NCBI GenBank assembly: GCA_932294295.1
Contig: OW028573.1
Span: 70,223,829 to 70,287,828, forward strand
Source: Alitta virens
Taxonomy: Eukaryota > Annelida > Polychaeta > Phyllodocida > Nereididae
DNA length: 64,000 nt
Reading direction: 5' to 3'
Below the pieces are notes generated by a model that worked only from the letters and a program-made list of their open reading frames with translations, was not told where the DNA came from and searched no databases. The position numbers and the translations under genes were made by a program. How positions within the stretch are numbered: the first letter of the stretch is position 1; each line of letters opens with the position of its first letter. Shown here piece after piece: positions 14,738-58,450 of the stretch.

Positions 14738-14940
14738 GTGTGTGTATGTGAGTTATTGTTTAACGCCTCATCAGCACCTGAGTGGGCTATGTAGAGGCTC
14801 TCTAGGTTAAGATTGATTATCTATATTTGGTAGTAGAAACCAGAAGCATATAAAAAATCAATAATTGTCTGGGTTCAATATCTGGTAAAGAGATGTTGTG
14901 TAAGGTATTAGCTTGAAACAAAGGTCTTCTAAAGCGTTGT
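14738..14940 (-). mobile_element. LINE 3' end, 5'-truncated (ORF2 C-terminus plus 3' UTR)
   Basis: On the minus strand this reads the last codons of a non-LTR retrotransposon ORF2, ending IDFLYASGFYYQI and stop. A short 3' UTR ending GGTGCTGATGAGGCGTTAA and a simple tail follow. The truncation point is at the ACAACGC block. This LINE family is the probable partner of SINE-B, which shares its 3' end. Confidence 0.75.
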
Positions 14941-15127
14941 GGGTGGGTGGGTGATTAGGGCTTTACGTCCTGTATTTCTGCACCTGATGGGCTAATTAGG
15001 ACAGGCAGGGACCATGGCAATGAGACGAAGGATGAAACAGCCATCCAACTTAGGCTCGACCGGGAATCGAACCCGGGACCCAGCGGTTGGAAGCCCAGAG
15101 CACTACCTCTGAGCTAGGCCCCCGCCC
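14941..15127 (-). mobile_element. SINE-A full-length copy
   Basis: The whole element is present, with a perfect B box (GGTTCGATTCC) and A box on the minus strand and a GGGTGGGTGGGTG tail on the left. It carries the variant TGCACCTGATGGGC shared with the copies at 15744 and 16384, which defines a subfamily. Confidence 0.9.
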
Positions 15128-15129
15128 TG

Positions 15130-15473
15130 ATAATTACTCAAAAACTGAGGCTTCACGGTTGGACTATATATGAAAGAACCAATCCCAATTACGTGTTGAC
15201 AGATACATAGGATTATTGGATTTTGTTCCCAATCAAACTAAGGCAAATGACTTACCACCTAGTCGCAGTTTCAGAAGAAAGGCTTGCAACATTGCCATTT
15301 GCTGGTCATCCTGGATGACGAAAGCAAACTGAAAGATGGAAATGATGTTGACACAGCAATTTCAGCTGAAATTCCCAATCCACGAGAGGATCCTGTACTA
15401 TTTCATGGTTCATGAGCCATGTGGTTTGTTGAACCAACATGCCCCATGCATGCAAGAGGGGAGATGTACAAAG
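15130..15473 (+). pseudogene. Helitron Rep fragment, duplicated middle part
   Basis: This is the second unit of the tandem duplication. The frame from 15336 reads into EPCGLLNQHAPCM and CTKG before it runs into the SINE-A tail, as in unit 1. Confidence 0.8.
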
Positions 15474-15745
15474 GGGTGTGTGTGTGTGATTAGGGCTTTA
15501 CGTCCTGTATTTCTGCACCAGTTGGGCTAATTAGGACAGGCAGAGTGTGTATGTGAGTTATTGTTTAACGCCTCATCAGCACCTGAGTGGGCTATGTAGA
15601 GGCTCTCTAGGTTAAGATTGATTATCTATATTTGGTAGTAGAAACCAGAAGCATATAAAAAATCATTAATTGTCTGGGTTCGATATCTGGTAAAGAGATG
15701 TTGTGTAAGGTATTAGCTTGAAACAAAGGTCTTCTAAAGCGTTGT
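15474..15745 (-). mobile_element. SINE-A tail plus LINE 3' end (duplicated unit 2)
   Basis: This is the same arrangement as 14665-14940: a SINE-A tail fragment (15474-15543) followed by the truncated LINE 3' end (15544-15745). Confidence 0.8.
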
Positions 15746-15931
15746 GGGTGGGTGGGTGATTAGAGCTTTACGTCCTGTATTTCTGCACCTGATGGGCTAA
15801 TTAGGACAGGCAGGGACCATGGCAATGAGACGAAGGATGAAACAGCCATCCAACTTAGGCTCGACCGGGAATCGAACCCGGGACCCAGCGGTTGGAAGCC
15901 CAGAGCGCTACCACTGAGCTAGGCCCCCGCC
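15744..15931 (-). mobile_element. SINE-A full-length copy
   Basis: Complete head, body and GGGTGGGTGGGTG tail. Its right end, CCCCCGCCCCTATGG, was the target of the SINE-B insertion that follows. Confidence 0.9.
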
Positions 15932-15938
15932 CCTATGG

Positions 15939-16196
15939 TAATAGTAGTAGTAGTGTTATTGTTTAACGCCTCATCAGCACCTGAGTGGGCTATGTAGAGG
16001 CTCTCTAGGGTAAGATTGATTATCTATAGTTGAAAGTAGAAACCAGAAGCATGTAAAAAATCAATAAAGTGTCCGCGTTGGATAGCTGGAGCAGCTTGTG
16101 CAATGCGCACTGTCCTGTTTTAGCCACTAGGGATAGAGGACTTCACCCCAAGTGTTTCCACCCTCGCCGCATGGAGGCCCAGGACCTTCAAGGGCC
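15939..16196 (-). mobile_element. SINE-B (LINE-tailed short element) with TSD
   Basis: It is flanked by CCCCGCCCCTATGG at 15925-15938 and 16197-16210. On the minus strand it begins GGCCCTTGAAGGTCCTGGGC and runs through a ~130-base head. It then enters a segment identical in layout to the LINE ORF2 end (IDFLHASGFYYQL in other copies) and 3' UTR, finishing in a TAC/TAG-rich simple tail. Other copies in the window start at the same 5' base, so this is a defined element and not a random truncation. Confidence 0.85.
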
Positions 16197-24901: not shown

Positions 24902-26158
24902 ATGCAAAGCGTGGATGTGGTAACAAAAATGGACAATTTATCAGGGGATATACATGCTATTAATGGGAAGATAAACACAATGCAGTCTAGCATTGACTCT
25001 ATGCAAAATAGCATTAAAGACTTCTCTAAAATCAATGAAAGATTAGACACTGTTGAAGAGATTTCCACCAATGCAAACTTTCTAGCTGAGAAAAACTCTG
25101 AATCGCTGGAGTCTTTAGAAGAGAGGATTAAATCCCTTGAGCTGAAACTTCAAACAGTGGTCATGAAATCTGATAAAACAGTGGAACTGTTAGAAACTCA
25201 ACAGTCAGCTCTTTCACAGCTAAAAAATGACCATGTCAAACTTGATACTTATATGAGAAGGGAAAATCTGCTATTTCTCAATGTTCCTGAAACAGCCATT
25301 GAAAATTGTGATCTCTTTCTAAGGAAAATTTTCAGTGATATGAAAGTTGAAAATCCAGAACAAATATCAATATCCAGGTGCCACAGGCTAAAGTTTGGCA
25401 AAGCCCCTAAGCCTATCATTTGCAGGTTCCAATATTTTGGTGACAGAATGTCAGTGTGGTACAAGCGCTCTAATCTGAAAGGCAAGCCAACGGTGATACA
25501 AGAGGACTACAATGCAGATATCGTCAAAACCAGGAAATACCTATATCCTGTACTCAAAGAAGCCAAATCGCAAAAATTAAGGGCATTCCTAGTTCAAGAT
25601 AAGCTGCAGATAAATGATATTCAATACACTGTTGCCTCCCTTGGACAAGTCCCAGACTCACTCAAGTCTGTGGCTACGGGCTGTAAGCAATCTGCTAACG
25701 TCACAGCATTTTTCACCGAGAAGAATCCTCTTTCAAATTTCTTTCCTGCTCCTTTCAAAGAAGGTCCCAATCAATTTAACTCTGTTGAACAATATTTCCA
25801 ACATTGCAAAGCCGTTATGTTTGTAGATGAAGTCACTGCTGTCAAAATCTTGTTTGCAACTAATCCAGCTACATGCAAGTACTTGGGTGGTCAAGTGAAA
25901 AATGTGAACATGGCACAGTGGCACTCCTCATCTGTAGAAAGAATGAAATGTGGGCTTGAATTAAAATTTTCTTCAAATGCTTACTGCAAGCAAGCGTTAT
26001 TCAAAACCGGAAGTACCACCCTAGCCGAGGCCTCTTCAGACAAGTTCTGGGGTACTGGTGTTGCCCTTGCCAATGCTGATTCGCTTGTCCAGTCAAAGTG
26101 GTCTGGCCAAAACACCCTTGGAAAACTTCTTGAGGTAATCAGAGAACAGTTGAAATAA
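24902..26158 (+). CDS. LINE ORF1: coiled coil, L1-type RNA-binding region and C-terminal NADAR (YbiA-like) domain
   Basis: This is an intact 418-residue ORF. Residues ~1-110 form a heptad-rich coiled coil. Residues ~115-245 look like an L1 ORF1 RRM/CTD (YMRRENLLFLNVPE, CHRLKFG, KPIICRF, QEDYNADIVKTRKYL). Residues ~267-416 match the NADAR/YbiA fold throughout: FFTEKNPLSNFFPAPF, SVEQYFQHCKA, LKFSSNAY, KTGSTTLAEAS, DKFWGTG and GQNTLGKLLEVIREQL. ORF1 proteins bind LINE RNA and act as chaperones. NADAR proteins are N-glycosidases on phosphoribosyl or ADP-ribose substrates, including ADP-ribosylated nucleobases. The fusion is in one uninterrupted frame, so it is not an assembly join at a splice site. 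The role of the domain here is inference. Confidence 0.88.
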   Translation: MQSVDVVTKMDNLSGDIHAINGKINTMQSSIDSMQNSIKDFSKINERLDTVEEISTNANFLAEKNSESLESLEERIKSLELKLQTVVMKSDKTVELLETQQSALSQLKNDHVKLDTYMRRENLLFLNVPETAIENCDLFLRKIFSDMKVENPEQISISRCHRLKFGKAPKPIICRFQYFGDRMSVWYKRSNLKGKPTVIQEDYNADIVKTRKYLYPVLKEAKSQKLRAFLVQDKLQINDIQYTVASLGQVPDSLKSVATGCKQSANVTAFFTEKNPLSNFFPAPFKEGPNQFNSVEQYFQHCKAVMFVDEVTAVKILFATNPATCKYLGGQVKNVNMAQWHSSSVERMKCGLELKFSSNAYCKQALFKTGSTTLAEASSDKFWGTGVALANADSLVQSKWSGQNTLGKLLEVIREQLK

Positions 26159-27175
26159 GAAAGTGACTCAATTCATATATTGTCTGATTATCATACCTAA
26201 CGAATTTGATTTTCTCAGGCAATATGTCTTAATTTAAAGTGACTTTCTCTCTTCTTTAATTTAATCTTAGCCATTTCTTATTTTTTGATGATCTTTTCTT
26301 GGTCTGTAAACAATTGTTTGATTTGTAGATATTATGTTGGTATAATGTTTGATATTGATTACCCTTTATTCCAATGTTTGTTTGTTGTACCAAGCCCATT
26401 CAACTTGTACTATGGATAGTAAATTCAATTATATTTCACAGTTTTGTTAATGTGTTAGGTATTTCTTGCTTAATGTTCTACAATGCTTTAATTTGCCTGG
26501 TATGTAAATGAACAATTATTATCAGCCAATTTGTATCTTACAACTTTCAATCAATGTGTCAAGCAAGAAACAGATATAAACTCACTAAGCTAAATGATTT
26601 TTGGTGTGATTATTCCCTTGTTTGGCTGATGGGCAATGTCTGTTCTTTGTGTGGTTAACGTGTTTCAAATTATATGCTGACCTATATTTAGTTTGCTCAA
26701 CTCATGGACTTTGTAGCATTGATTTGCAGGTTAATTCAACTCAAACTTTCAATGTCCTGTGAAGTACATCTACTAGACTTGTTAATTCTCAAGATGCATT
26801 ACTCCATTTTTCTTTTTTTGCTGTTAGCCTGAAACCTATTGTTGCTGATTCATCCACATTTAAACTATATATTGATATGGGCCCACTGCTGTGGTCAACT
26901 ACTGCTGACCCTCTTAGCTTCCATTTTATTTCCAATGTCTAATTATATGTCTTTCAAGTTTTTGTTATTGTTTCACCATTATAATGCCGCTTGTTGTAAT
27001 TTTGCAGATTATTCAAACAATGTGTTTACATATTTCATGATTACTGGTGCTCTAGAAGCTTCTACCTGGAAAGGATTTCACTCACATGTTAACAATAAGT
27101 ATAACTCGCATATACTAGCAATTATTTCCCTTACATAATTTTTATTTCAAATCTTTTACCCGTTAATATGTTATC
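26159..27175 (+). mobile_element. LINE inter-ORF region
   Basis: About 1.0 kb of AT-rich sequence separates ORF1 and the ORF2 remnants, longer than in most LINEs. A 99-residue frame at 26839-27138 has no recognisable domain. I infer that this is LINE sequence because no other element edge is visible. Confidence 0.5.
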
Positions 27176-30100
27176 ATGATAATTGAAGTTCCCTCCTGTA
27201 ATATACTGGACCAATCGCCAACTTTAGTTGATTTATTAGTAAATAAATCATTAGTATTTGAAGATGACAGTAATGAACCTAACGTTTATCAACAATCACC
27301 CTATTACTCAAGCTTTAATCTACCTGATATTCTATGTTCAAAAAGGAATTCATTGAACTTGCTCAGCCTTAACTGTCAATCTTTGCAAGCCAAATACGAG
27401 CCTTTAAAATGTTATATTAAGTTTCTAAAAGACAATAATTGTGTGATTTCAGCAATATGCCTACAGGAAACTTGGTTGGCTAGCGAGAGTGATCTGTCTC
27501 TTCTTCAACTTGAAGGTTACAATCTAATATCTAAAGGTAAATCATGCAGTGCACATGGTGGGGTATCTATTTACCTCCATGAGAGTTTTCAATATAAGAT
27601 CCTAACTCATCTTACTGAAACTGTATCTTGTGATGTTCAACTTCTTGAAATAATTCTCAATAGTGAATTAGTTTCTCCTGTCATTCAACATTTATAGGCC
27701 ACCCAGGCAATTAATCCAGGACTTACACAATTTTCAAGATGAATTAAATGTAATTATGGAAAATATACAAGGCTATAATCATGTTGTTATTACAGGTGAT
27801 TTCAATATAGATCTCCTCAAGTACAAAGATAATTTACATACCAATGACTTTCTCGATAACCTACTATCTCAAGGCTACCTCCCCAAAATCACTATGCCAA
27901 CGAGATTGACTCATCGTAAAGGGACTCTAATAGACAACTTCTTTGTCAAGCTTTCAGTGAGATATTCAAATACAACATCTGGAATCTTAATAAGCAATAT
28001 TTCGGACCACTTGCCGTATTTTCTGTCCTTAGGTTACCTATTCACAAAAGAGTCAACAAAAAAACGCATTAAAGTTTTCTGTGAGAGCAGGGATTCTATT
28101 ATGAATTTTAAAAATGCGCTAATGGAACCAAATATCTCTGATGCCAATACTAGCTACAATAAGTTTAATGATATCCTTCACTCGCTCATAAATAAACATT
28201 GCCCTATTAAATATAAAAGGTTCAATAAATACAAAAATAAAAATAATGATTGGATTACTACTGGAATCCTTCGCTCTATTGCTTTTAGAGACAAATTATA
28301 TCAGAAATTGAAGTTAACCACAGCGGACAACCCTAGATATTTAGTACTTAAAAAACAATCTGAATTCTTATAACAAAATCTTAAAACAATCCATTCGTTT
28401 AGCAAAGAAGTCCTTCTATGCTAAATATTTTGACAACTATAAAAACAATATAAAGAAAACCTGGAATATGATCAACGAAATAATAAACAAAAAGAAGGTA
28501 ACTAATGCATTCCCAAAGCAATTTTTGATAAATGACAACTTTGAAACTGACCCCAAGAATATAGCTCAACAATTTAACAAATATTTTGTGGAAATCGGAC
28601 CTAAACTTGCCTCTTCTATAAGTAACCATAGTCATGATACTTTTAGAAAGTTCTAGAAGAATCCGGCTCACCAAACGTTTCTTTTTAATCCTGCAACTGT
28701 ACCAGTAATAATTAAAACAATAGACAACTGAAAACCTAAGAGCAGCTGTGGCATTGACCGGTTATCTACTAAACTATTAAAACATTGCAAACTAGAATTA
28801 GCTCACCCAATAATGTTACTGTTCAATAAATGTATTCAAGCTGGCACTTTTCCGAATAAGCTCAAAATAGCTCAAGTTCTTCCAATATTCAAGAAAAATG
28901 AAAATTTGAAAATTATAGGCCGATCTCAATTCTTCTAAGTGTGTCAAAGGTCTTTGAAAAAATCATGCATGCTCAAATCTATGAATACTTTATGAAATCA
29001 AATCTTTTCTATCAAAGCCAGTATGGTTTCAGGACTTGCCACTCAACCGAATATGCAGTCCTTGAGGTAGTTGAAAGAATTATAACATCTATGGACAAAA
29101 AATTAACACCTTTAAATGTATATTTAGACTTATCGAAGGCCTTTGACACACTTAACCATGATATCCTATTATATAAATTGAAACATTATGGTTTTCGAAA
29201 TGAGTCTCTAGATTTTATGAAAAGTTATCTGTCAAATAGACTGCAGTATGTTAAGCTTGAAGATATATCCTCTGATCTAATGCCCTTAACAGTAGGAGTT
29301 CCTCGGGGGTCCATTCTAGGTCCCCTTCTTTTCATTATATATATTAATGATCTGGTCCATGCCACAGACCGGTTTTATCCAGTCATCTATGCCGATGATT
29401 CCACTCTGATGGCAACACTAAACTTCTTTGGTGAAACTGATTTAGAATCCAGTATAAATAATGAGCTAAGTAAAGTTAGCAATTGGTTAAACCTAAATAA
29501 ATTGTCTTTGAATACCACCAAAACTAAGGCTATGATTTTTCATACTGCCCAAAGGGAAGTTTGTAAACCCCACTTAAAAATGGAAAACCATACTATTGAG
29601 TTTGTCGAGAGCTTTAATCTCCTTGGCATAGTGATTGACTCTAAATTGAAATGGGGTCAGCACATAGATATCATTGGTAAAAAGATAAGTAGGACCTCGG
29701 GCATTATAAATAAATTGAAAAACTTTATCCCTATCAATGCAATTCTGAACATTTATAACTCACTAATACTATCCTATATTAACTATGGCTTATTAATTTG
29801 GGGTGTGAAAGGTAACAAAATTTCAAAATTACAAAAAAAAGCCATTAGACATATGACATGGAGCAAACATAATGCTCACACAAGTGGGCTTTTTAAAGCT
29901 TTAAATCTGCTCAAATTTGATGACCTATGTGCACTGCATGACTATAAATTTAGCTATAGAGCAGAAAATGGCAACCTTCCAGTTTATTTTATGACCCTCT
30001 TGCAGTCTCTCAAAATTACCAGTCAAAATTACCCCACTAGACAAAATCTTATGTATAGACCACCCCAGATTAGACATGAATTTGCTAAGTGCAGTATTAC

Positions 30101-30266
30101 ATACCGATACCCTCAACTTTTTAATAGCATGAGTTTAAATATAAGAGATAAAATGTTCACACATAGTTTTGATGGCTTTAAGAAATATATTAAGAAAATA
30201 ACCATCAATTCATATTCAGATCACTGCTCGCTACCAACCTGTTATGTCTGTGAAAGAAACTGTTAA
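27176..30266 (+). pseudogene. LINE ORF2 (endonuclease and reverse transcriptase), several frameshifts and stops
   Basis: Successive frames (27176-27697, 27756-28373, 28468-28656, 28941-30266) give one APE-RT protein. The apurinic endonuclease motifs are LLSLNCQSL, CLQETWL, VVITGDFNIDLL and ISDHLPYF. The RT carries FRTCHSTEYAVLEV, YLDLSKAFDTLNHDIL, GVPRGSILGPLLFIIYIND and YADDSTLM, then a thumb region. Frame breaks occur near 27690, 28373 and 28650, with further stops at 28730 and about 28920. The motifs fit the CR1/L2 side of the Jockey supergroup. The catalytic YADD is intact but the ORF is dead, although ORF1 of the same copy is open. Confidence 0.88.
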
Positions 30267-30545
30267 ATGTGTCCAACTAACTCCGACATAATATATTTGT
30301 ATTTTAACTAAGTCAAACTTTTATTTGCTGTATATGCCATGGAAAAGATCCACCTCTGTGTACTAAGTTGTACATTTTTAAATTTGTATTGCTAACATTT
30401 ACTTCAAGTTAACTTTAGGTGGTCCCTCGATAGCGGCACCTAAATGCCTTAGAGGGATCTCCTCCACTAAATAATTTTTATTATTATAATTTTTTTGTTT
30501 TGATTATGTATGATTGTTAAATATAGTGGTGAATAAAATGACGAT
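30267..30545 (+). mobile_element. LINE 3' UTR and end
   Basis: The 3' UTR follows the ORF2 stop, includes a GTGGTCCCTCGATAGCGGC block and an AATAAA at about 30533, and runs to about 30540. PolB-coding sequence resumes directly after. I could not define a target-site duplication for this LINE. Confidence 0.6.
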
Positions 30546-32025: not shown

Positions 32026-35000
32026 CTAAAAGGCTAGTTCCCACTCAAGCAAAAAAGTCAATATTTTTTCATCCAGGACCTTGTAACCCTGTCCTATGGA
32101 CAGGGGACTTGTAGCTAGCTTTTTGAATACATTCTCTGACTGAATGATGAAGTTGCTGTTATCAACAAAACATTTTTCCAAATCTGCTACAAAATAAACC
32201 ATGGCTCTTTGAGGAAATATCAGACCGTGATCAGGAGATGTAAAACTATATTTCTTATGATTAAGAAATGTGTATTCAGGTGTGCTACCAGATAATGGTG
32301 AAATTTCCCAAGAAGTTGAACAATCATTGCATAAATCTGCCTTATGTTTCGACCTAGCTCTCTTGATGAGATAACCGGCTGAGTATGCTATGACATTTTG
32401 ATCCTGACAATCCTCAGGTACTTGAGGACAATTTCTTATTTCAGAGCTGATCATGATGGAGCTGTAGTCATCTGCTGTAATATCACTACCAGTGGCACCA
32501 TGACAGTCACTGGTCTCTTGCATGGAAGGCTGCAGGGGTGGATCTTCACTCACCTTTGATGTGAGACTTTCCACACCAAGAAGAAAATTGTCGATGTCAT
32601 CCTGACAGTTCTTTCCTTGGATTGGAACAAAAATATTGTCCATTGCAACCTGTCGGTAGGCAGCATTAAACTGCACACTGTCAGGATTAATACAGTGCCC
32701 ACCTCTGTAACGAATTTGTGAAAAGAAATTTTCTAACCTGTCTTGATTCAGTCTATTAGTATATAAAACTTCAAAAGCATGTTGTATTTTCAACTCATCC
32801 CAAAGCAATTTCAAACATATGATGTTATGTTGCCAACCTAATACTGATGGCAGTTGTTTACCCGATTTACCTATCTGTGTGAGATATGGCAGCCACTCCA
32901 TGCATTTGTCCAAAAATTCTAAGTGAGATGATGTTGGAGTTATGCCTCTTCTAAGAATGTGACTGTCATGCAGTGACCGACTGTTGAATACATTGAACAG
33001 AGAGTCCATATTTTCAATAAACTGTGCCGTTTCTGTTGCATCCTCTTCACCTGCCCATTTCCCAAGGTCATGCATGGCTCCTATGCTTGCTGCAACAGTG
33101 TGGCTCAGCACCTGAGTAGCAAGTTTCACTGACATGGTTTTGAAGGCAGGTACATTGATGTGTTTGGATGTAATCTTTGGAGCCATACGGATGTTCCTAG
33201 CATGATCAAATTTGAACATGTCCTCAACGTATTTCCACTTAATTGACCTGCCATTGAGGTTGAATCCATGCTTTTTCAAGTTGTTCCTGATATTCTTAAT
33301 AAGGTGAGTAGGATCATACAGTACAAATATTTTTTCTCCATCATGATCAGTAGAGTAAGGCTGGTCTTTGGTTACACCTAATTGTCGAAGCATAAGGCAG
33401 TTATTACTTCCTTGATCACAAATTAACACTTTGATATTCAGACCTGTCTGTCTGACTTTAGTAATGCAATCTAACAGTAAAGATTTCAATTTTTTTCCCT
33501 CGACTGGCCCACTGGATAGATAATAACTGACAGGCTGCTTCCATTTACCTGCAATACCTGCAACCATGAACACACCAGCATGATTGGCTATTTTGTGTGT
33601 TCTATGTGAGCCATAGTCTTCCAGGCCATCAATTAGGTCCTTTTGTCTGTTGAATTGTACGTACTCCTTGATGGCCATTTCGTCATACAGTATGGTGCAC
33701 AGTTTTGTTTCTGCATTCATGTGTGCAACCTTAGTTTTCAAAGCGTCAAGCAGACATTGGTTCACACCTGGTGACATTTGAATCTGTTGCATCACTCGAA
33801 TCAATGTTGACACAGAAGGCAGCACAAAAATTCTTCGCAACAGTCGATAGCATTTGGGGCTAGAATGATACAGCTGCAAAGCCAAGGTTTTGTCCCCATC
33901 AGTCCATCTGAGGCCCTGCTTCTTTATTCCTGCAAGTCTGATTTGGGCAGACACAAACTTTAATGCATTTCCTGACAAGTGCTGTCCAAGTTGATTAATA
34001 ACAGTTGATTTGGAACACTTGCGAACAGCTTTTGTGCTTGTGACTCTCCGCAATTTTTGGTCTTGAGCTTTGATCTTCAGATTCAACTGCTGTATTGTAG
34101 CTTTGAGGGTTGGGACATTGTCTTCCTCCTTGTCACTTGGCCCCCATGTCCATTTCTACATGCATGGATAGGTCCTCCTCTGATGCTGTAAAAAAAATAT
34201 ATTATTGATAATCTGGAGTTTATTTGTTTTGATATCATGAACTTATTACAAGTGTCTGAGTTCATGTACATGACTTACCTGCAGAAATCCTCTTCTTTTC
34301 CACATTGTGACGAACAGTTGGACCTTTCCGTTTAACTGTCAAACTTTTTGGTGGATTCGGAGCATCTATGAGTGTTGGAACAGCATTCCAGTTCAACCCC
34401 TTGTGGCTGAAAATGACACAATCAATTTTAAATAATGTGAAATCAAAAGAAAAAGGGGAAACAAATCAGTGGGAAATCAATTTTAAAAACTGCAAATACT
34501 TTTCATGTGGAATTTTGTCTAGGGAAGCATTTCTGAGATTTCTAATCCAGATCAGAAATCTATGAAAGAAAAATGGATGCTTTATAGTTATCATTCATAT
34601 GATATAGGCCTATAGTAGCCTAATGTGATCAAATGTTGGAAATGGAGTAATTACAATATACCTTGTATTTTTGCATGAGTTAGTTAGTTAGTTAGTGTTA
34701 TTGTTTAACGCCTCATCAGCACCTGAGTGGGCTATGTAGAGGCTCTCTAGGGTAAGATTGATTATCTATAGTTGGTAGTAGAAACCAGAAGCATGTAAAA
34801 AATCTATAATTGTCTGCGTTGGATAGCTGGAGCAGCTTGTGCAATGCGCACTGTCCTGTTTTAGCCACTGGGGATAGAGGACTTCACCCCAAGTGTTTCC
34901 ACCCTCGCCGCGGGGAGGCCCAGGACCTTCGAGGGCGTATTTTTGCATGAACCAAAATAAATAATATAAACTCACCTTTCTCTGTCTTTAACAGGATTTG

Positions 35001-35094
35001 GAAATCTATGGTATGCAACATCTTTATCCCTTGAACTGTAGTTATTACAGTGAATAGCACAACATTCATATCCTTTGGCAGAGGATTTAGACAT
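32026..35094 (-). CDS. THAP-domain P-element-type transposase (near-intact, THAP interrupted)
   Basis: Exon 1 (35094-34976) begins MSKSSAKGYECCAIHCNN and ends RDKDVAYHRFPNP, the first half of a C2CH THAP zinc finger. Exon 34406-34279 gives the end of the THAP domain (NWNAVPTLIDAPNPPKS). The large ORF 34086-32026 (686 residues) follows. It carries ILYDEMAIKE, LICDQGSNN, VLYDPTHLIKNIRNNLKK and NQDRLENFFSQIR, typical of P-element/THAP9 transposases. The THAP middle segment with its LCxxHF ligands was not found; a SINE-B lies in that intron. A one-base shift at a G run near 34144 separates the exon frame (SEEDLSMHVEMD) from the long ORF. The enzyme cuts and pastes the element; this copy probably lacks a full DNA-binding domain. 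Confidence 0.88.
34679..34936 (-). mobile_element. SINE-B copy inside the P element, with TSD
   Basis: It is flanked by GTATTTTTGCATGA at 34665-34678 and 34937-34950. The tail (plus-strand left) is GTTAGTTAGTTAGTTAG. The minus strand ends its ORF-like part with IDFLHASGFYYQL and stop, the shared LINE tail. It sits in the intron between the THAP exons of the transposase. Confidence 0.92.
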
Positions 35095-35566
35095 GTTTTC
35101 TATATATGTATACTTAATCCCAACATGTCCTTTCTTAAGCAAAGATCCTGACTGAATGAACTGCTGAGTTAAATTTGTAACTATCATTATAATGGATTAG
35201 GGTCTGGGGTTAACAGGGGTTGAATTAAATGTTAGGAGATGATAAACATTCACTACTCTAGCAGCTGTCAGTCGTTTGATCCTGGATCCCCTGCTCTCTG
35301 AATTATGCTTGACTTGACAGATTAATAGACCATTTGTAGCTGGAAACTGAATTTCCTTTTAAACATTAGACTCCAGTGGAGGGTAATTTGGGATATTCAG
35401 ATTTTTGGTCATATATTGTGTGACATGTAGTGTTAGTATGCTTGTTTATCACATGCAAGTGATACTACAGCCCTGCCTGCTCCACACCACCCTAGAGAGG
35501 GCAGCACCTGTCAGTTGAATGGCGGGAAATGGGAGTGAAACGTCTGTATGTTGTCTGTGATACTGT

Positions 35567-37560
35567 GTTGACAATGGCATCTTCCCAGAAATTATATTCT
35601 CTGGTACTAAGATCATGTTGATGAGTATAAACCAAGGTGTGAACATTTCTTCCTATGCGTTTAAAGAACTTACCTAAAGCATTAGGTTTACGTGGTGAAC
35701 TTAAAAAGGGTGACTTTCCGCACTTAGCAAACTCTCTAATCAATCAAACCTAAGTTGGGCCACTGTTTGCCCCATACTATTATGGTGTTGACTTTATGTC
35801 AACAGCAGATAGAACTGATTTCTTCATATGGTACAATGAACAAAGTGGCAAGACATTTAATTTTCAGCAAGAAATGTTAGACTACACACGCTCAGATGTT
35901 ACGATTCTGAGAGAGGCATGCACTAATTTTAGAGCACTTATACAATCTGTTACACATATAGCAGACTCAAGTGTTCCAGGTGTAGACCCATTTGCTCATG
36001 CAACCCTGGCATCCTGCGCTATGCAGGTGATCAGACAACTAATGTTGTACGAGGTTCATAATGTAACCTTAACAGATGACAGGTCAGGGGAAGCAGTGTT
36101 GAGACGTGATACATGGTATTTTGATGGTGACATCATTAATCCTGACATTATAGCTACATCAATGTTTATTAAATCACCAATACCTCAGATACCTGCACAA
36201 GGGTATGGTAAACATCATAATGCTAGCCAGAAGTCATCGTTATGGTTAGAGTGGGTAAGCCACTCAGAAAGTAGACATATACAACATGCTAGGAATGGTG
36301 GCGAGTTCCGTACCGTTGCAGATCCGCAACAGTTTTGCAGGGGGCAGGGTTGAACCCACAACTCTATATTATGATATATAGGATGGTGAGAGGATACGTT
36401 ATTATGACATAACTTCATTGTATCCTTATATCACGATGTCTGGAGTTTTCCCTACATGTCACGCTACAGTACTTAAAGATCCAGCTACCTTTGATTACAC
36501 ACTACAATCTTATTATGGTCTAGCCCAGGTGCGAATCCTACCACCGCCAGGTCTATACATACCTGTTCTACCAGTCCGATGTAAAGGTAAACTGAAGTTT
36601 CCTTTATGTGGTACAAGGACAACACCAGAGTTAAAGGAGGCTATTAAGCAGGGTTACATGCAAGTGAAGATATATGAAGTATATCATTTCCCTACCACAA
36701 CACAGGATGACGTTTTTGGTAGTATTTTCACAGATTATGTTAATATGTTTCTTAAACAGAAGCAACAAGCATCAGGCTATCCCTCATGGGTAACTACAGA
36801 TGCTGATAAAGATTGTTACATTGAGTATTACAATAAGGAACAAGGTATCATGCTTGATAAAGATTCCATTGCATACAACCCTTCTTTAAGGACAATCTGT
36901 AAGTTGTTTCTTAACAGTGTGTGGGGGAAATTTGTACAACGACAAAACTTACCTAAATCTATTTACATGAAGTCTGTTAAAGAGTACACGCAAATGAAGA
37001 ATGATCCAACAAAGTGTATAATGAATTTTCATTTAATCTCTGACGATTATGTTGTGGTAGATGTTACAAATACTGAAACCTTTGAAGAGGAATCAACCTT
37101 CACCAATGAAATTATTGGTATATTTACCACATCATTGGCTCGTCTACATTAACTGCAAGTGTTAAATAAAACAGGGCGCAACACTTTATATTATGACACT
37201 GACTCAGTCATATTTGTTGAACGCAATGGTGTAAAAGTTGTTGAGACGGGCGACTTGTTAGGAGACTTAACAGATGAATTACAATCAGGTACTTATATTA
37301 AAACGTTTCTATCAACAGGGCCTAAGAGCTACTCCTATAAATTAAACACAGATGTTACTGTGCGGAAAATCAAAGGAATCACATTTAACTAAACAAATGA
37401 CACAATTATAGATTTGAATGTATGAAACAAATGGTTTTTGGCCAGGTAACATCACTTAGGCTTCCACAGAGCAATCAAATATCCTGTGTTAAGCACAGAG
37501 GTATAGTGTACAATAGATCTGTAAGTAAAGTATTCAGAAAAGTGTTTGACAAACGAGTTA
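35567..37560 (+). pseudogene. PolB, catalytic part (palm motifs present, several breaks)
   Basis: Directly after the P-element TSD, the frame resumes with EIIFSGTKIML and, later, FPHLANSL, YYYGVDFMSTADRTDF, FDFQQ-like FNFQQEMLDYTRSDV and GGEF. Motif A is DITSLYPYI (36406-36432), motif B KLFLNSVWGKFVQR (about 36898) and motif C YYDTDS (about 37187). The C-terminal FDKRV is at about 37545. Breaks are a stop near 35752, lost sequence and a frameshift near 36352, a stop at 37150, and a stop and shift near 37392-37422. Missing are the final residues, replaced by an AT microsatellite. Confidence 0.82.
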
Positions 37561-37611
37561 TAGGTAGAGACACACACATCAGTAACCGTAAGGTAATGTA
37601 TTGTATAACTA

Positions 37612-37614
37612 ATT

Positions 37615-37693
<79 letters not shown>
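37612..37693. repeat. (TA)n microsatellite
   Basis: About 80 bases of uninterrupted TA repeat, ending in TACACACATA. It follows the PolB remnant. Confidence 0.97.
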
Positions 37694-37700
<7 letters not shown>

Positions 37701-37994
37701 GCTATGGCTCCTGCACCTAATAGTTAACATTATCATCATATGTATACAAGCATCAAATAAATATTAGTTACAACATACTGCAATGTTCTATATCATGACC
37801 TTGCTAAGTTCAGCTGTTTGCAATGTTCTATATGTTAACCTTCGGCACGTGACAGTTAATGTAACATACTGGGGATTAGCTCGAGCTTTTCGTGACATAT
37901 AGAATGCTGTTCTGTGCTGTAATTCTCTACATACCACTTATCGTTAGCGGTTTAATATATTGTGTGGATCTTATGCATCTTTGGATCGTTTTGG

Positions 37995-38205
37995 TGTATA
38001 TACATGTACAACATTGACTGATGGATCACACCTTCAAGCGGATTGTACCAAACATTCTTGGCTTCAACAACCCCCCTCGTTTTCAACGTAGATTCTACAG
38101 CTTATAACACTGATTGATATGTCTGGCACTGTGTTCTGTCATAGTACATCGTTAAAGACAACTGTACATAATAAAACAATCTTATGTCTGGACAGCACTA
38201 CAGGT
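37995..38205 (+). pseudogene. Receptor-like exon: weak Ig-like motifs (degenerate)
   Basis: One frame reads DRFGVYTCTTLTDGSHLQADC then TKHSWLQQPPSFS and stop. After a shift another frame reads LIDMSGTVFCHSTSLKTT and NKTILCLDSTT, ending at a GTAAGT donor (about 38203). The D..G.YxC and DMSGTxFC spacing resembles the F-strand of immunoglobulin-like domains, and the part ADCTK ... DMSGTVFCH parallels ADCTK ... DMTGTHYCH of the TM exon at 39750 and 41210. The Ig assignment is tentative. Confidence 0.35.
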
Positions 38206-38284
38206 AAGTAAGTCATATAAACACATTATACTATATATATATATATCATACATGTCCTTTATAATAATCATACATTTCAGAGAT

Positions 38285-38474
38285 GTGGGTGGGTAGGTGA
38301 TTAGGGCTTTACGTCCTGTAGTTCTGCACCAGTTGGGCTAATTAGGACAGGCAGAGACCATGCCAATGAGACGAAGGATGAAACAGCCATCCAACTTAGG
38401 CTCGACCAGGAATCGAACCCGGGACCCAGCGGTTGGAAGCCCAGAGCGCTACCTCTGAGCTAGGCCCCCGCCCT
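38285..38474 (-). mobile_element. SINE-A copy with TSD
   Basis: Flanked by ATACATTTCAGAGAT at 38270-38284 and 38475-38489. Full head and B box on the minus strand; the tail is GTGGGTGGGTAGG on the plus-strand left. Confidence 0.92.
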
Positions 38475-38490
38475 ATACATTTCAGAGATA

Positions 38491-38743
38491 GTAGGTAGTA
38501 GTGTTATTGTTTAACGCCTCATCAGCACCTGAGTGGGCTATGTAGAGGCTCTCTAGGGTAAGATTCATTATCTATAGTTGGTAGTAGAAACCAGAAGCAT
38601 GTAAAAAATCAATAAGTGTCTGTGTTGGATAGCTGGAGCAGCTTGTGCAATGCGCACTGTCCTGTTTTAGCCACTGGGGATAGAGGACTTCACCCCAAGT
38701 GTTTCCACCCTCGCCGCGTGGAGGCCCAGGACCTTCAAGGGCC
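38491..38743 (-). mobile_element. SINE-B copy with TSD, at the same site as the SINE-A
   Basis: Flanked by TACATTTCAGAGATA at 38476-38490 and 38744-38758, one base offset from the SINE-A duplication. The two elements used practically the same nick site, which is an exon acceptor (CATTTCAG) of the stalk exon that follows. Confidence 0.92.
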
Positions 38744-38751
38744 TACATTTC

Positions 38752-38887
38752 AGAGATACCTACCAGTCCTACCAGTAACATATCAGATGCACACACAAGT
38801 ACACAGAGTACTTCAGAGATTACAACATTTACGCAGGATGCTTACAATGTATCAATGGTGCACAACATAATGGTATATACATCTAGC

Positions 38888-38929
<42 letters not shown>

Positions 38930-39008
38930 TTATTGTTTAACGCCTCATCAGCACCTGAGTGGCATCTAGCACTGAACTTGATCAGCATAGTGACACACAC
39001 TACAGGTC
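38752..39008 (+). pseudogene. Ser/Thr-rich stalk exon, interrupted by a LINE tail
   Basis: After the CATTTCAG acceptor the open frame reads IPTSPTSNISDAHTSTQSTS, then EITTFTQDAYNVSMVHN. It is rich in Ser and Thr with N-glycosylation-like NIS and NVS, as in an extracellular mucin-like stalk. A (TG)n-tailed LINE 3' scrap (38892-38962) with TSD CATCTAGCACTG interrupts it. The frame resumes and ends near a GTCTAG site at about 39003. I do not recognise the gene. Confidence 0.45.
38892..38962 (-). mobile_element. LINE/SINE-B 3' tail fragment with TSD and (TG)n
   Basis: TSD CATCTAGCACTG at 38880-38891 and 38963-38974. The insert is (TG)n followed by GAGTTATTGTTTAACGCC and CACCTGAGTGG only, an extreme 5' truncation. 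Confidence 0.9.
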
Positions 39009-39178
39009 TAGTAAAACAATGAATGCCATTAATGTCTACCAGTTTAGTGTATCATGAATTGTTCTGGTATACATTATGTTCAAGGTACGTATGCACAATG
39101 TCCAACTAGTATGATTACTGTGTAACCATACCTTAGCATTAACCTTTAAAACTGTTCCCTTCCATTACAGATTGTTAT

Positions 39179-39275
39179 AATAATGGCTGCAATGATACGA
39201 CGTCTTAGGCGATTGATGCTGCAGATCAAGTTGGATACAGCTATGACCATCTCGCAAGAAGAACTGGTGTTAGTC
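39179..39275 (+). other. Exon-like piece with YxxL motif
   Basis: After a CTTCCATTACAG acceptor, one frame reads CYNNGCNDTTS, stop, AIDAADQVGYSYDHLARRTG. The YDHL motif could be a cytoplasmic tyrosine signal, in line with the receptor-like exons around it. The stop and the unclear phase make this weak. Confidence 0.25.
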
Positions 39276-39279
39276 AGCT

Positions 39280-39523
39280 AGTGTAATTGTTTAATGCCTC
39301 ATCAGCACCTGAGTGGGCTATGTAGAGGCTCTCTAGGGTAGGATTGATCATTCATAGTTGGTAGTAGAAACCAGAAGCATGCAAAAAATCAATAAGTGTC
39401 TGCGTTGGATAGCTGGAGCAGCTTGTGCAATGCACACTGTCCTGTTTTAGCCACTGGGGATAGAGGACTTCACCCCAAGTGTTTCCACCCTCGCCGCATG
39501 GAGGCCCAGGACCTTCGAGGGCC
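39280..39523 (-). mobile_element. SINE-B copy
   Basis: It starts on the minus strand at GGCCCTCGAAGGTCC and ends in the LINE-type tail at the left. A near-identical copy with the same right flank (GTCTATGTTTGTGCAAAG) lies at 41880-42140, showing that both belong to a local duplication. Confidence 0.88.
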
Positions 39524-39545
39524 GTCTATGTTTGTGCAAAGTGGT

Positions 39546-39736
39546 GGGTGGGTGGGTGGGTAATTAGGGCTTTACGTCCTGTATTTCTGCACCAGTTGGG
39601 CTAATTAGGACAGGCAGAGACCATGGCAATGAGACGAAGGATGAAACAGCCATCCAACTTAGGCTCGACCGAGAATCGAACCCGGGACCCAGCGGTTGGA
39701 AGCCCAGAGCGCTACCTCTGAGCTAGGCCCCCGCCC
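39546..39736 (-). mobile_element. SINE-A copy with TSD
   Basis: Flanked by TTGTGCAAAGTGGT at 39532-39545 and 39737-39750. Full length, intact A and B boxes. Confidence 0.92.
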
Positions 39737-40118
39737 TTGTGCAAAGTGGTAAATGATGGCAGGAGTATTAGAGCGGATTGCACTAAGTCTCCATCGCTGG
39801 ATCACGTACCGATCGAGGAATTCTCTTCTATGGAATACAGTCTGTTATCATTCGTAGATATGACTGGGACCCATTATTGTCATTTTCGCACTCCTCCTAC
39901 ACCCCGATGTATCGACGCAAGTTGTTTGCAGATGCACAATTATCAAGGAAATGCAGAATCCTGGTCTTGGCACCTACAACCTCAGATCTCACAATAGAGT
40001 AGTTAACAATCCTCATACGTTGGCGATTGTTATACCTACAGTCTCTACGGCTTTATTAGTGCTTATATTAGCTGGTGTTGGTATTTGGATCTATAAGGTA
40101 CGTCATTGTTACATATAG
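39737..40118 (+). pseudogene. Receptor-like transmembrane exon, copy 1 (frameshifted)
   Basis: It matches copy 2 at 41194-41574 over its whole length (about 380 bases). In copy 1 a CGCACTCCTCCTACACC change shifts the frame before the TM part. The TM-encoding part (AIVIPTVSTALLVLILAG-type) is still readable in another frame and ends at a GTACGTC donor near 40098. It lies between SINE-A copies on both sides. Confidence 0.6.
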
Positions 40119-40147
40119 TAATACAGTAAATATATTCCTTTACATAG

Positions 40148-40337
40148 GTGGGTGGGTTGGTTGATTAGGGCTTTACGTCCAGTATTTCTGCACCAGTTGG
40201 GCTAATTAGGACAGGCAGATACCATGGCAATGAGACGAAGGAGGAAACAGCCATCCAACTTAGGCACGACTGGGAATCGAACCCGGGACCCAGCGGTGGA
40301 AGCCCAGAGCGCTACCTCTGAGCTAGGCCCCCGCCCT
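40148..40337 (-). mobile_element. SINE-A copy
   Basis: Full-length. Its left flank (TATATTCCTTTACATA) is the same as that of the 41603 copy, so it was part of the duplicated unit. Confidence 0.9.
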
Positions 40338-40784
40338 TGTATACAATTGTAATATTATGTACACTGTATATATTATTCATACTATTGATAAGCTTACTTC
40401 ATGTATTCTATCTATATGTATAACAACAGATACATTGTATATTTATTCATACTATTGATGAGCTACTGTACATATTCTGTGCCATATTACTATCTATATG
40501 GATAACAGCAGCTATACAATGTAATACCATATGTTATTCACACTAGTGATGAGCTACTGCATATCTTCTATACCATATTACAATCTATATACGACGTTTG
40601 TTGTAGTTCATGTGACGACTCAACCCGTGTTGATACCACCGTTTCCGAACTTCAATGTACCCCTGACGCTCTTCAATGTACCCCCCCCCCCCCCGCTCAT
40701 GATGACACTGTTTGTGGTTCGAACAACACACCTGGAACTACACCTCTCACAAGCGCAACGACTGCTGGATCCGCCACTGATGTG
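40338..40784 (+). other. Spacer and Cys/Thr-rich exon-like frame
   Basis: 40338-40600 is AT-rich with repeated TATTCATACTATTGAT phrases. After a TTTGTTGTAG acceptor (about 40607) one frame encodes SCDDSTRVDTTVSELQCTPD, then AHDDTVCGSNN and TPGTTPLTSATTAGSATD, a Cys-containing then Thr-rich stalk-like stretch. It is cut by a SINE-A, after which VKVKLTYTNAQV follows. It contains a C run at 40680-40695 that may shift the frame. Confidence 0.35.
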
Positions 40785-40972
40785 GGTGGGGTGGGTGATT
40801 AGGGCTTTACGTCCTGTATTTCTGCACCAGTTGGGCTAATTAGGACAGGCAAAGACCATGGCAATGAGACGAAGGATGAAACAGCCATCCAACTTAGGCC
40901 CGACCGGGAATCGAACCCGGGACCCAGCGATTGGAAGTCCAGAGCGCTACCTCTGAGCTAGGCCCCCGCCCT
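40785..40972 (-). mobile_element. SINE-A copy with TSD, in the stalk-like exon
   Basis: Flanked by CCGCCACTGATGTG at 40771-40784 and 40973-40986. Intact promoter boxes in sense (minus) orientation. Confidence 0.92.
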
Positions 40973-41021
40973 CCGCCACTGATGTGAAAGTGAAACTGAC
41001 ATACACTAATGCCCAGGTGAT

Positions 41022-41193
41022 GGTGGTGATTAGGGTTTTACGTCCTGTATTTCTGTACCTGATGGGCTAATTAGGGACCATGGCAATGAGACGAAGGATG
41101 AAACAGCCATCCAACATAGGCTCGACCGGGAATTGAACCCGGGACCCAGCGGTTGGAAGCCCAGAGCGTTACCTCTGAGCTAGGCCCCCGCCC
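41022..41193 (-). mobile_element. SINE-A copy, slightly shortened body
   Basis: It carries the TGATGGGC subfamily variant and lacks about 14 bases of the body (GACAGGCAGG). The B box reads GGTTCAATTCC. Confidence 0.88.
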
Positions 41194-41574
41194 TTGTGCA
41201 AAATGGTAAATGATGGCAGGAGTATTAGAGCGGATTGCACTAAGTCTCCATCGCTGGATCACGTACCGATCGAGGAATTCTCTTCTATGGAATACAGTCT
41301 GTTATCATTCGTAGATATGACTGGGACCCATTATTGTCATTTACGCACTCCTCCTACCCACGATGTATCGGCACAAGTTGTTTGCAGATGCACAATTATC
41401 ACGGAAATGCAGAATCCTGGTCTTGGCACCTACAACCTCAGATCTCACAATAGAGTAGTTAACAATCCTAGTACGTTGGCGATTGTTATACCTACAGTCT
41501 CTACGGCTTTATTAGTGCTTATATTAGCTTGTGTTGGTATTTGGATCTATAAGGTACGTCATTGTTACATATAG
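41194..41574 (+). CDS. Receptor-like transmembrane exon, copy 2 (open frame)
   Basis: The open frame contains ADCTKSPSLDHVPIEEF, SFVDMTGTHYCH, VVCRCTII and, near its end, a clear hydrophobic helix AIVIPTVSTALLVLILACVG followed by IWIYK. It runs into a GTACGTCATTG donor at about 41554. So this is probably an exon ending just after the TM helix, of a type I membrane protein with a cysteine-containing ectodomain. The apparent start is inside SINE-derived sequence, so the true 5' edge is unknown. No named family is recognised; a weak Ig-like motif (DMTGTHYC) is present. Confidence 0.5.
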   Translation: MCKMVNDGRSIRADCTKSPSLDHVPIEEFSSMEYSLLSFVDMTGTHYCHLRTPPTHDVSAQVVCRCTIITEMQNPGLGTYNLRSHNRVVNNPSTLAIVIPTVSTALLVLILACVGIWIYKVRHCYI

Positions 41575-41602
41575 TAATACAGTAAATATATTCCTTTACA
41601 TA

Positions 41603-41793
41603 GGTGGGTGGGTGGGTGATTAGGGCTTTATGTCCTGTATTTCTGCACCAGTTGGGCTAATTAGGACAGGCAGAGACCATGGCAATGAGACGAAGGATGA
41701 AACAGCCATCCAACTTAGGCTCGACCGGGAATCGAACCCGGGACCCAGCGGTTGAAAGCCCAGAGCGCTACCTCTGAGCTAGGCCCCCGCCCT
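41603..41793 (-). mobile_element. SINE-A copy
   Basis: Full-length, at the same left flank as the 40148 copy (duplicated). Confidence 0.9.
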
Positions 41794-41876
41794 ACTTTTT
41801 ACCTTCTAATCGCAACCACGTTAATACTGTGTACAAATGGATACCGTTACATATGCGCAAACCTTGTATGTTTGTA

Positions 41877-55544: not shown

Positions 55545-58450
55545 CTAGGCCGCAGGAGCGGCCCCGTAGGGCTTTTATGTTTAGAGATTGGCCAGAATGA
55601 AATCTACTGACATGTCTTTCTGAAATGACTGGATCGGAACTTTGTTGTCCTAATTAATCTGCACGGCCCTGATGCGCACAAACTTATAATGACCTACTTA
55701 CACAAAAAACATGCTTAACTTAAGATCTACCTGACAAATTTGAAGAAACTCACGTTAGAACACTGTTACATGATAATTTCTATGTGATTCAAGACTGGAC
55801 AAGCAGTAGAACTATGGTTTTGAATGTTCCATGGGAGCCATGTCCATTTCCGTGATTTTCAAAAGGCTAGCCAACTAAATGAATGTTCGACCAATCAGAG
55901 CAGAGCTTAATTGCTAGGCCATTTGCTAGGCAACGAGCTCTAACAAACTCTGTGATTGGCTGTGGTGCTTATAAATAGGTTTTAGAAATCAATGCCCGAT
56001 CATGATCATGATGCGCCGGGACGAAATAGGTCAAAACGTCACAAATAACTTTTGTCGATGACGTCACAGAGAACTGCCTTTGACGCACCACTGCAAGGCA
56101 ACCATGCACGTATGTAAGTTTAATTTATTACGCCGAAAAACGACGTGTTCGCTCAACCGGAACGATCGCAATTTTGGTTGCCTAGACTGTTACATAACTA
56201 ATTGCTATTAGACAAGAATACATGTACACAGATGAACAAAATAAATAGTAGAACAACTCCACTTCGGCCTATTAGTCAGGTACGTTAATGGAACCCTATT
56301 GAGCAATATATATAAAAAAAGCAGATCACTTATAATAATGTCAAGTGGCCGTGGTGAATGTTTTTTTTTTTTTTTTTTTATGTTTTGCCATTCTCAATTG
56401 CACTCTACAATGTTTCACCAGAAGTCAAATAGGCCTATAGATATTAATTACATTATTATTTACATGAAAATGTAAATAATAATTATATTATATGGCTTTT
56501 ATTGACATTGATTCATATCAGAAAAGATACATTTGTCACATATAACTACAGCTCTACTCACTAAATCTAACTAAAGCTACACCGGTCTACAGAAATATGC
56601 TATACAGGTTCTCATTATTTTATACATAAATCATAATATGCTAAATATAGCTAAAAATTCAAGGTAATAATATCCTTACAGTAGGATTTACATAAAACAT
56701 AGAGTAAGATTTACATAAAACATAAATCACATATCAACCAGTGAGACATTTAACAAAAATACTGATCACAACATAAAATAAGATTAAAATTTTCATAATT
56801 ATATACAAAATACTGATAATAATATCACAATACAAGTTAAAATTTGCAGTTTACATATAGGTTTCATATGAAATATGGGAGAGAAAAATACCAGGCAACA
56901 TTGCGCTGACCCTGGCATTTTGACTCATCTATTTTATGATGGCAGTTGTCAAGGAAGTGGCAAGTCAGAGGAGCCCAGTGGAAATTTAAGTCTACATTAC
57001 TTTATTTAGGAAATTACCAAGAGCATATATCATGTCAGGTTCTTTATTTGACATCAATGATTTAAATTGTTGTGTTTTATCTAAGTTATGGAAATTTGGT
57101 ATCAGGCTAGTTGCTTTTAGGATTAATTGATTTCTTGGTCCTGCATGATTGTTACAGATTAAGAGGCAATGTAGTTCATCTTCTACGTCATTACTATCAC
57201 ATTTATTACATTTTCTTTCTTCTAATGGTATTTTGGGGGTCTCGTGTCTTCCGGTTTCAATTTTGAGGTTATGTGAGCTAAGTTTAAATCTCGCTATGTT
57301 ATTATATGTTCTCTTGGGGAAGTTAAGATTTAGATAAGGTTCAAAGCAATAAGTAGTTTTAAATCATTTATATGTTCTTAGTTTTGGGTGCTTCTCAGAG
57401 TCATTAATCTCCCTAAGGATCCTTGATTGTTCAATTTCATACAGTTTAAGTTTGATTTCAGTGACCAGAGTTTCTGGCTCCTTTGATTCCCAACTATTTA
57501 TATTACATTCATTTATGATATGTATTGTTTTATTGTACCAGTTGCTCTGACCCTTCAGGTGTAGAAATTCTTGAATTTTGAGGCATTTATGTAGGGTGTC
57601 ATAGGATGGCAGTGTCATTAGTCTTCCCCAGTACTTAATCATGTTTATCTTTTGTCTAACCATAAGAGGAAACCTGCCTGTCTCAGCATACACAGCTAAG
57701 GTTGGGGTTTGTTTTCTTACACCTAACAAACTTTTAAGATATCTAATTTGTAATTTCTCCATGTCATTGTGTTGTTTACCCATACACCATAACATGCTAT
57801 TGTATTCAAGGATTGGCAGAATATAGCTATCAAACATCTTGATAGCAAGTGATGGGGGTATGTAGCCAAGGGATGGTTTTATTCTACTTTGGAGTGCAAA
57901 TAGTGCATTTTGCGCTTGGTTGACTAGATATTCAATAATAATTTGCAGGTTTGAATTGTGTTTAATATTCAAGAAATGTAGTTTATTGTGACAGTTCTGT
58001 AATAACTAAATTTTACCAATCTAATTATAGTCACATGAACTCCATAAATAGGCCTAATGCTTAGAGTTCTTAAATTATATTCCTATATATATGAACATGT
58101 GAGCAATTTTTGATGACCAGAAATATCTCTTGAAAAAAAATTATTTAAAACCTTGTTTATGGCTGACCTTGAAACCTCCTATAGTGGAGATATACAGGGA
58201 AAAAATAAATTGAATACCACAAAGTTCCTTAGATCAGTGGAATGTTTCATCTGGCTAACATTTCTGGATTTATTTATCTGTTAGATATAGCAGGCTCGTA
58301 GCAGCTACACATACATGTATGAGTGGTGGGGGGGGGGGGATAAATAATAATATACCACTCTGTTTACTACTTTCATGCTGGTTGAACCCTACAGTCTGTG
58401 GGTTGAACTTGGTAGTTTTATCAATATTTGCATTATCATATTATTAGTAA
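55545..58450 (-). repeat. ~1.5 kb dispersed repeat, copy 3 (inverted, split by a LINE fragment)
   Basis: Read on the minus strand it runs from the ACTACCAAGTTCAACC block (about 58415) through GAAACATTCCACTGATC (58240) and a long poly-T tract on the plus strand (56361-56379). It continues through the GAGCGAACAC block near 56150 to a terminal GGCCGC-TCCT-GCGGCC hairpin and CTAG at 55545-55548. A LINE fragment of about 1.55 kb (56440-58015) interrupts it. Together with copy 1 at the left edge, it forms a pair of inverted repeats about 55 kb apart. Confidence 0.8.
56460..58015 (-). mobile_element. LINE fragment: post-RT C-terminus of a second non-LTR family
   Basis: The minus-strand ORF 57972-57364 encodes AKMFDSYILP-like IKMFDSYILPILEYNSMLWC, LQIRYLKSLLGVRKQTP and ETGRFPLMVRQK. 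A stop codon after RTYK is followed in the same region by NIARFKLSSHNLKIETGRH and a CCHC-like RKCNKCDSNDVEDELHCLLI. This is the region between the RT thumb and C-terminus of an APE-type LINE distinct from the two other LINE families in the window. It is 5'-truncated and inserted in the dispersed repeat. Confidence 0.82.

Follow-up and report, generated by a model that had tools for sequence, protein, structure and literature searches.

LINE retrotransposons of the ragworm Alitta virens with a NADAR domain in an L1-type ORF1

ADP-ribosylation of nucleic acids is known best from bacteria. NADAR hydrolases undo this modification of guanine on DNA (PMC11543638, PMC11125620), and of the hydrolase families assayed only they were found to reverse ADP-ribosylation of the guanosine base on RNA (PMC11833690). 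Their roles across eukaryotes, animals included, have been called unclear (PMC11125620). The described enzymes (8bau from Phytophthora, E. coli YbiA and the DarT1-associated NADAR of E. coli C7) share a catalytic glutamate and lysine with the elements reported here, and the YbiA-type glutamate with one class of them, which we call class 1. They differ in lying outside retrotransposons, and in that class 1 lacks the R79 and R93 contacts of 8bau. NADAR domains have also been described in positive-strand RNA viruses of invertebrates, annelid and bivalve picornaviruses among them, often within the polymerase polyprotein (PMC9503650).

The presence of NADAR in a LINE ORF1 is already in print. In several families of Tx1-clade LINEs of Crassostrea gigas the ORF1s appear to have a YbiA-family NADAR, like class 1, and the authors, too, propose that the domain helps to process the RNA intermediate (PMC12477816, 2025). 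Those elements are called Tx1 whereas class 1 has an L1-type ORF1, and the comparison is with one passage of that paper, which gives neither ORF1 layout nor catalytic residues. The same source has a second retrotransposon with NADAR, an Ectocarpus Gypsy, but this is an LTR element of a brown alga with the domain in Pol rather than ORF1. Among the papers that our searches of the open literature listed, PMC12477816 is the only one in which we saw a NADAR reported in a LINE ORF1.

Two described types of LINE ORF1 are close in other respects. The type II (L1-type) ORF1 of L1, CR1, L2 and R1 LINEs has a coiled coil, a single RRM and a C-terminal domain (CTD), followed by an ORF2 with endonuclease and reverse transcriptase (EN-RT), as does class 1; the main text of that survey of Jockey-group ORF1s contains none of the terms NADAR, DUF1768 and YbiA (PMC4120745). 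The esterase ORF1 of zebrafish ZfL2-1 (PDB 4c1b, PMC3905857) resembles the C-terminal SGNH-like domain of a second class of elements described below, which differs from ZfL2-1 in having NADAR ahead of the esterase-like domain. Within the literature searched, what appears to be new here is the joining of an L1-type ORF1 layout to NADAR with family-wide catalytic conservation and recent copying, together with the occurrence in one genome of two classes of NADAR LINE with different active sites.

The ORF1 of the window and its source copy

The window, by which we mean the whole 64,000-nucleotide stretch that was analysed, holds an open frame (Table 1) that the earlier note had read as an uninterrupted LINE ORF1 protein of 418 residues, composed of a coiled coil, an L1-type RNA-binding region and a fused NADAR domain; the frame, Pfam and a family profile bear out all of this. 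The Pfam NADAR profile (PF08719; DUF1768 in that note's proposed check) matched residues 273-418 over profile positions 9-163 of 163 at E 1.1e-34, and the score of 120.5 bits, against a curated cut-off of 35.1, rules out a chance profile match. Used alone as phmmer query, the window sequence matched the NADAR structure 8bau (E 1.4e-15) and YbiA (2b3w, E 4.1e-5), and matched LINE-1 ORF1p weakly (E 0.11).

The RNA-binding part and the coil came out with a family profile of 46 rows, made from the window sequence and 45 database relatives. This profile matched the NADAR structures (8bau 6e-35; YbiA 2b3w 3.3e-27), the RRM and CTD of LINE-1 ORF1p (2yko/2ykp, E 2.3e-16 over profile positions 80-239; 2ldy, 7.3e-10) and the LINE-1 ORF1 coil (6fia, E 0.005); tropomyosins and many other coiled-coil proteins match it too. 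Since this one profile reaches LINE-1 ORF1p, the LINE-1 coil, 8bau and YbiA, the order coiled coil, RRM, CTD, NADAR is, on these matches, the real layout of the window ORF1. Pfam Transposase_22 (PF02994) was absent from the best 25 of 27 families for the window frame and from the best 25 of 58 for the 46 rows.

Table 1. Features of the LINE copies in the window (positions count from its first letter)
Feature	Position	Strand	Size or basis
Open ORF1 frame	24902..26158	+	418 codons
Coiled coil (residues ~8-112)	24923..25237	+	Weak sub-cut-off Pfam coil matches and family profile
RRM and C-terminal domain, L1-type ORF1 (residues ~113-262)	25238..25687	+	Family profile against 2yko/2ykp
NADAR domain (residues 273-418)	25718..26155	+	PF08719, 8bau, residue columns
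5'-truncated LINE copy	24918..30434	+	Extent of homology to sister L031 on contig C3; real 3' end maybe ~100 bases further
Broken ORF2 (endonuclease and reverse transcriptase)	27263..30251	+	tblastn with open ORF2 of L034; Pfam on pieces
ORF2 piece, frame 2	27263-27664
ORF2 piece, frame 3	27675-28319
ORF2 piece, frame 1	28351-28911
ORF2 piece, frame 3	28902-30251
3' ORF2 fragment of class 2, separate element	56995..57978	-	tblastn, 87% identical to L039

The copy that supplies this frame is itself damaged. It has a sister copy on contig C3 (L031), whose protein is 96% identical to the window ORF1 and whose nucleotide sequence aligns by blastn at 98.5% over 24918-26856 and at 94.4% over 26862-30434. 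Because the homology begins at 24918, inside the window ORF1, and the sister frame runs about 30 residues further at the N-terminus, the window start codon and approximately the first six residues (MQSVDV; 24902 to ~24918) are, by this alignment, flanking DNA, and the copy is 5'-truncated. Pfam found RVT_1 in the largest of its ORF2 pieces (E 1e-23), with the endonuclease pieces under cut-off.

Between the two copies there are 30 mismatches in 1939 bases of the ORF1 part; beyond it, 3666 aligned columns hold 78 mismatches and 126 gap positions. The dN/dS of the window frame against the sister is 0.025/0.037, about 0.7, a value slightly inflated by the flank-derived first codons. With so few changes the open ORF1 can be explained without selection, and in a truncated copy with a broken ORF2 it tells little about function. 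We therefore reject it as a sign of function: the earlier note was right that ORF1 is open and ORF2 broken in the same copy, but retained ORF1 function, which it had offered as one explanation, is unsupported in view of the truncation, the few changes and the dN/dS.

A repeat of about 120-230 bases was seen in eight places of the window, at 14765-16195 and 34710-46321, and is also found immediately after the point at which LINE homology ends in the sister copy.

Family members, active site and ORF2

The Alitta virens genome searched has 671,116,069 bases in 23 contigs. With the window protein as query, 100 of 653 first-look candidates were scored, which yielded 103 listed matches, a lower bound; among these, 78 reach both RRM/CTD and NADAR, and 48 extend from residue 120 or before to residue 400 or beyond (37 of the 48 with no internal stop). 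When only the RRM/CTD was used as query (201 candidates, 150 scored, 146 matches), NADAR was found downstream on the same strand in 30 of the best 30 matches, the window copy and its sister included and the weakest being E ~8e-12 over 40 residues. Two lower-scoring, decayed matches that were read separately (L082, L083) both have NADAR as well, which brings the matches read to 32 of the 146.

Relatives were also found in a protein database of genomes and metagenomes, 45 of them at E <= 1e-3 and 28-53% identity, 33 being matched over at least 80% of the query. All except one of the 45 match the NADAR profile (44/45, or 45 of 46 rows with the window; E <= 0.01). Scans of viral contigs found no relatives. 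The 45 database relatives and the 78 of 103 listed genome matches that span RRM/CTD and NADAR rule out a one-off chimera.

Residues of the NADAR domain are numbered here as in the P. nicotianae enzyme (PMC11543638), mapped through the 8bau alignment. That paper names E43 and the YbiA-type glutamate, E125, as mechanistically relevant. The putative catalytic residues of the window protein are E296 (E43), K303 (K50) and E376 (E125), and the residues of its predicted ADP-ribose site are W340 (W89), D380 (D130) and W383 (W133). All 46 rows keep E43, 43 keep K50 and 45 keep E125, the remaining one having a gap there; of the ADP-ribose-site residues, W89 is kept in 45 rows, W133 in 42 and D130 in 39. 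R79 and R93, which are ADP-ribose contacts in the one structure 8bau and are not stated to be family-defining, are R in a single row each (1/46) and are G330 and S344 in the window. The genome copies give a similar picture. They comprise 29 frames (L001-L030, L001 being the window copy, minus L022, which has no open frame of 230 codons), in which E43 is kept in 29 and K50 in 26, its losses being two R and one Q; the 27 frames that reach W89 and E125 all keep both, and D130 and W133 are more variable.

Mean pairwise identity is 37.7% for NADAR, 35.3% for RRM plus CTD and 14.7% for the coil (40 of the 46 rows, those of at least 380 residues), although these rows had been gathered by similarity to the full-length protein. 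With that reservation, NADAR appears to be under long-term constraint no weaker than that on the RNA-binding part. Copies within young groups have diverged too little for dN/dS to reveal selection on the domain.

Six class-1 loci were enlarged to 7.5 kb, and in all six EN-RT sequence matching the ORF2 of one of them, L034, sits 3' of ORF1 on the same strand. In L034 both frames are open, ORF1 having 421 codons and ORF2 1046, EN and RT motifs are in place, and profiles match NADAR (E 1.1e-37), RVT_1 (E 1.1e-30) and endonuclease (E 2.9e-7); the remaining five have ORF2 incomplete or in two to five pieces. An (ATTCTG)n stretch stands behind the L034 ORF2; this and the RT motifs are hints that the class-1 ORF2 may belong to the CR1/L2 side.

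Three copies on three chromosomes, L009, L011 and L010 (at the L034 locus), share about 99% identity over a stretch that starts some 170 bases ahead of ORF1, and are dissimilar upstream of that stretch. Such near-identity behind distinct 5' flanks marks them as separate recent insertions, and by this sequence comparison the copies show recent activity of the family. In L027-L029, on the other hand, the flanks are common as well, and these are segmental duplicates.

The earlier note had suggested looking for the same ORF1 layout elsewhere and for a copy adjoining an intact ORF2; the former is widespread in the counts above, and the latter was found at one locus, L034. That note had also named three outcomes that would speak against its reading, namely no NADAR profile match, a one-off fusion and loss of the catalytic residues across the family, and none of these was found in the material examined.

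A second class of LINE with NADAR

A query of NADAR alone against the genome gave 762 candidates, of which 150 were scored, all 150 above cut-off. Some of these matches sit in frames of 527-641 codons that belong to a different class of element. At four such class-2 loci (L037, at G000:C2:2391000-2398500, and L038, L039 and L040) ORF1 has NADAR placed in the middle (E 3e-25 to 6e-28) and an SGNH-like domain at the C-terminus, and is followed by EN-RT related to the ORF2 of L037, which is open there (1263 codons). Pfam GDSL was under cut-off in three of the four ORF1s and gave nothing in one. A class-2 profile of 21 rows matched YbiA (1.4e-20) and the zebrafish LINE ORF1 esterase 4c1b (2.2e-6), and 22 database relatives of class 2 were found, all with NADAR. 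The ORF2s of classes 1 and 2 are 26% identical over 372 residues of the RT region. On contig G000:C14, at 3894787-3989334, five NADAR matches lie about 21-27 kb apart, the first being L040; this looks like tandem amplification.

The active sites of the two classes differ. All 21 class-2 rows have E at the E43 position and H at the E125 position, and at the K50 position 13 rows have K and 8 have M; histidine at the E125 position has been described for phage NADARs (PMC11125620).

The origin of the domain was approached with a quick tree of 71 of 99 NADAR rows, after removal of near-copies and roughly half the database rows. A protein search with NADAR alone gave one protein, and the outgroup consists of 11 hand-picked phage and plasmid records. 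This tree separates class 2 from almost the whole of class 1, each grouping with its own bacterial or phage NADARs. The tree is weak: six bacterial or phage rows fall inside class 1, one class-1 row on a long branch (P0046) is placed on the side of class 2, and a single clade holding both classes was not rejected by the AU test (p 0.346). Taken with the histidine in place of glutamate at E125 and the different ORF1 layout, this weak tree suggests that classes 1 and 2 may have acquired NADAR separately.

Possible roles of the ORF1 NADAR

We favour, with about even confidence, the proposal that class-1 ORF1p carries a guanine-ADP-ribose hydrolase that would protect LINE RNA or cDNA. The earlier note had read the domain in much this way, as an ADP-ribose eraser that could counter a host PARP-type attack, and the sequences bear this reading out in part. 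ORF1p would assemble on the LINE RNA, multimerising and coating it in the manner of L1 ORF1p, and such a coat would line the RNA with NADAR domains. The NADAR so delivered would cleave the N-glycosidic bond and remove ADP-ribose from guanines of the LINE RNA or of single-stranded cDNA, the marks being cleared before or during reverse transcription, with the result that host or foreign ADP-ribosyltransferases would be unable to block translation or reverse transcription. The identity of the domain, its family-wide retention, the keeping of catalytic residues, the linkage to EN-RT and the recent copying have direct support from the sequences; from these and from the described enzymes we infer catalysis, a guanine-ADP-ribose substrate and an opponent. 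That recently active LINEs have a NADAR with conserved catalytic residues on their RNA-binding protein suggests the element's own RNA or cDNA as the substrate, and an enzyme of this sort would join the short list of extra LINE ORF1 domains, which holds an esterase and PHD (PMC4120745).

Several observations count against such an eraser. The lysine K50 is missing from 3 of 46 database rows and 3 of 29 genome frames, and the arginine contacts of 8bau are not conserved. Some NADARs act on riboflavin intermediates (PMC9303266), and some hydrolyse guanosine-ADPr in vitro and do poorly against DarT1 in cells (PMC11125620). The DarT family had no match in the whole Alitta virens genome in an exon-by-exon search whose control matched in Deinobacterium chartae, which counts against a DarT-like opponent and sets these LINEs apart from the DarT-NADAR toxin-antitoxin pair.

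A wider version, which we hold to be possible but doubtful, is that two LINE lineages of one worm captured NADAR separately, like algal Gypsy elements and animal RNA viruses. If so, ADP-ribosylation of RNA or cDNA bases would be a general and largely unrecognised animal defence against retroelements, for which the LINE ORF1 would carry the counter-enzyme.

PARPs are recruited at LINE-1 integration sites, and NADAR could be a reader: by binding ADP-ribose on proteins or nicked DNA it would direct the LINE particle to chromatin that is damaged or ADP-ribosylated and would aid integration there. Several residues of the ADP-ribose site are conserved, and NADAR forms the C-terminus of a protein that binds RNA, both of which agree with this. 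Binding alone, however, has no need of the catalytic glutamates and lysine, whose conservation is about equal to that of the binding residues, and the R79 and R93 contacts are lost; we consider a reader unlikely. The losses of K50 just cited, and the M at this position in 8 of the 21 class-2 rows, would suit instead a passenger or a purely structural domain that serves particle stability or RNA binding with catalysis lost, and fused domains can persist for structure. Near-invariance of E43 and E125 across sequences mostly 30-40% identical to that of the window argues the other way, and makes a non-catalytic domain slightly harder still to credit.

The other two alternatives keep the enzyme and change its substrate. 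The domain could destroy soluble immune signals of the host that derive from NAD or ADP-ribose, in place of nucleic-acid marks, as has been suggested for NADARs of viruses and above all of phages (PMC9503650), and the histidine that all 21 class-2 rows have at the E125 position is the residue assigned to phage NADARs (PMC11125620). Fusion to an RNA-binding protein points rather to a nucleic-acid target, and for NADARs of eukaryotic RNA viruses the former paper favours macromolecular targets (PMC9503650), so that destruction of soluble signals seems improbable, a shade more so than a structural role. Least probable of all in our estimate is a role without any arms race, in another RNA-processing step or on metabolites such as riboflavin intermediates or other ribosylated compounds. 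It has precedents in E. coli YbiA, an N-glycosidase on riboflavin intermediates, and in nematode SNA-3, which requires its NADAR domains in spliced-leader trans-splicing (PMC9303266). A damage-control enzyme for metabolites would nevertheless bring a retrotransposon no evident benefit, yet two classes of LINE carry NADAR.

Apart from the LINE copies the window contains an open frame of 686 codons at 32026-34086 on the minus strand that is DNA-transposase-like, presumably of the THAP/P-element type. On the plus strand, at 44043-48602, there are frames that by eye resemble pieces of a Gypsy-type LTR element.
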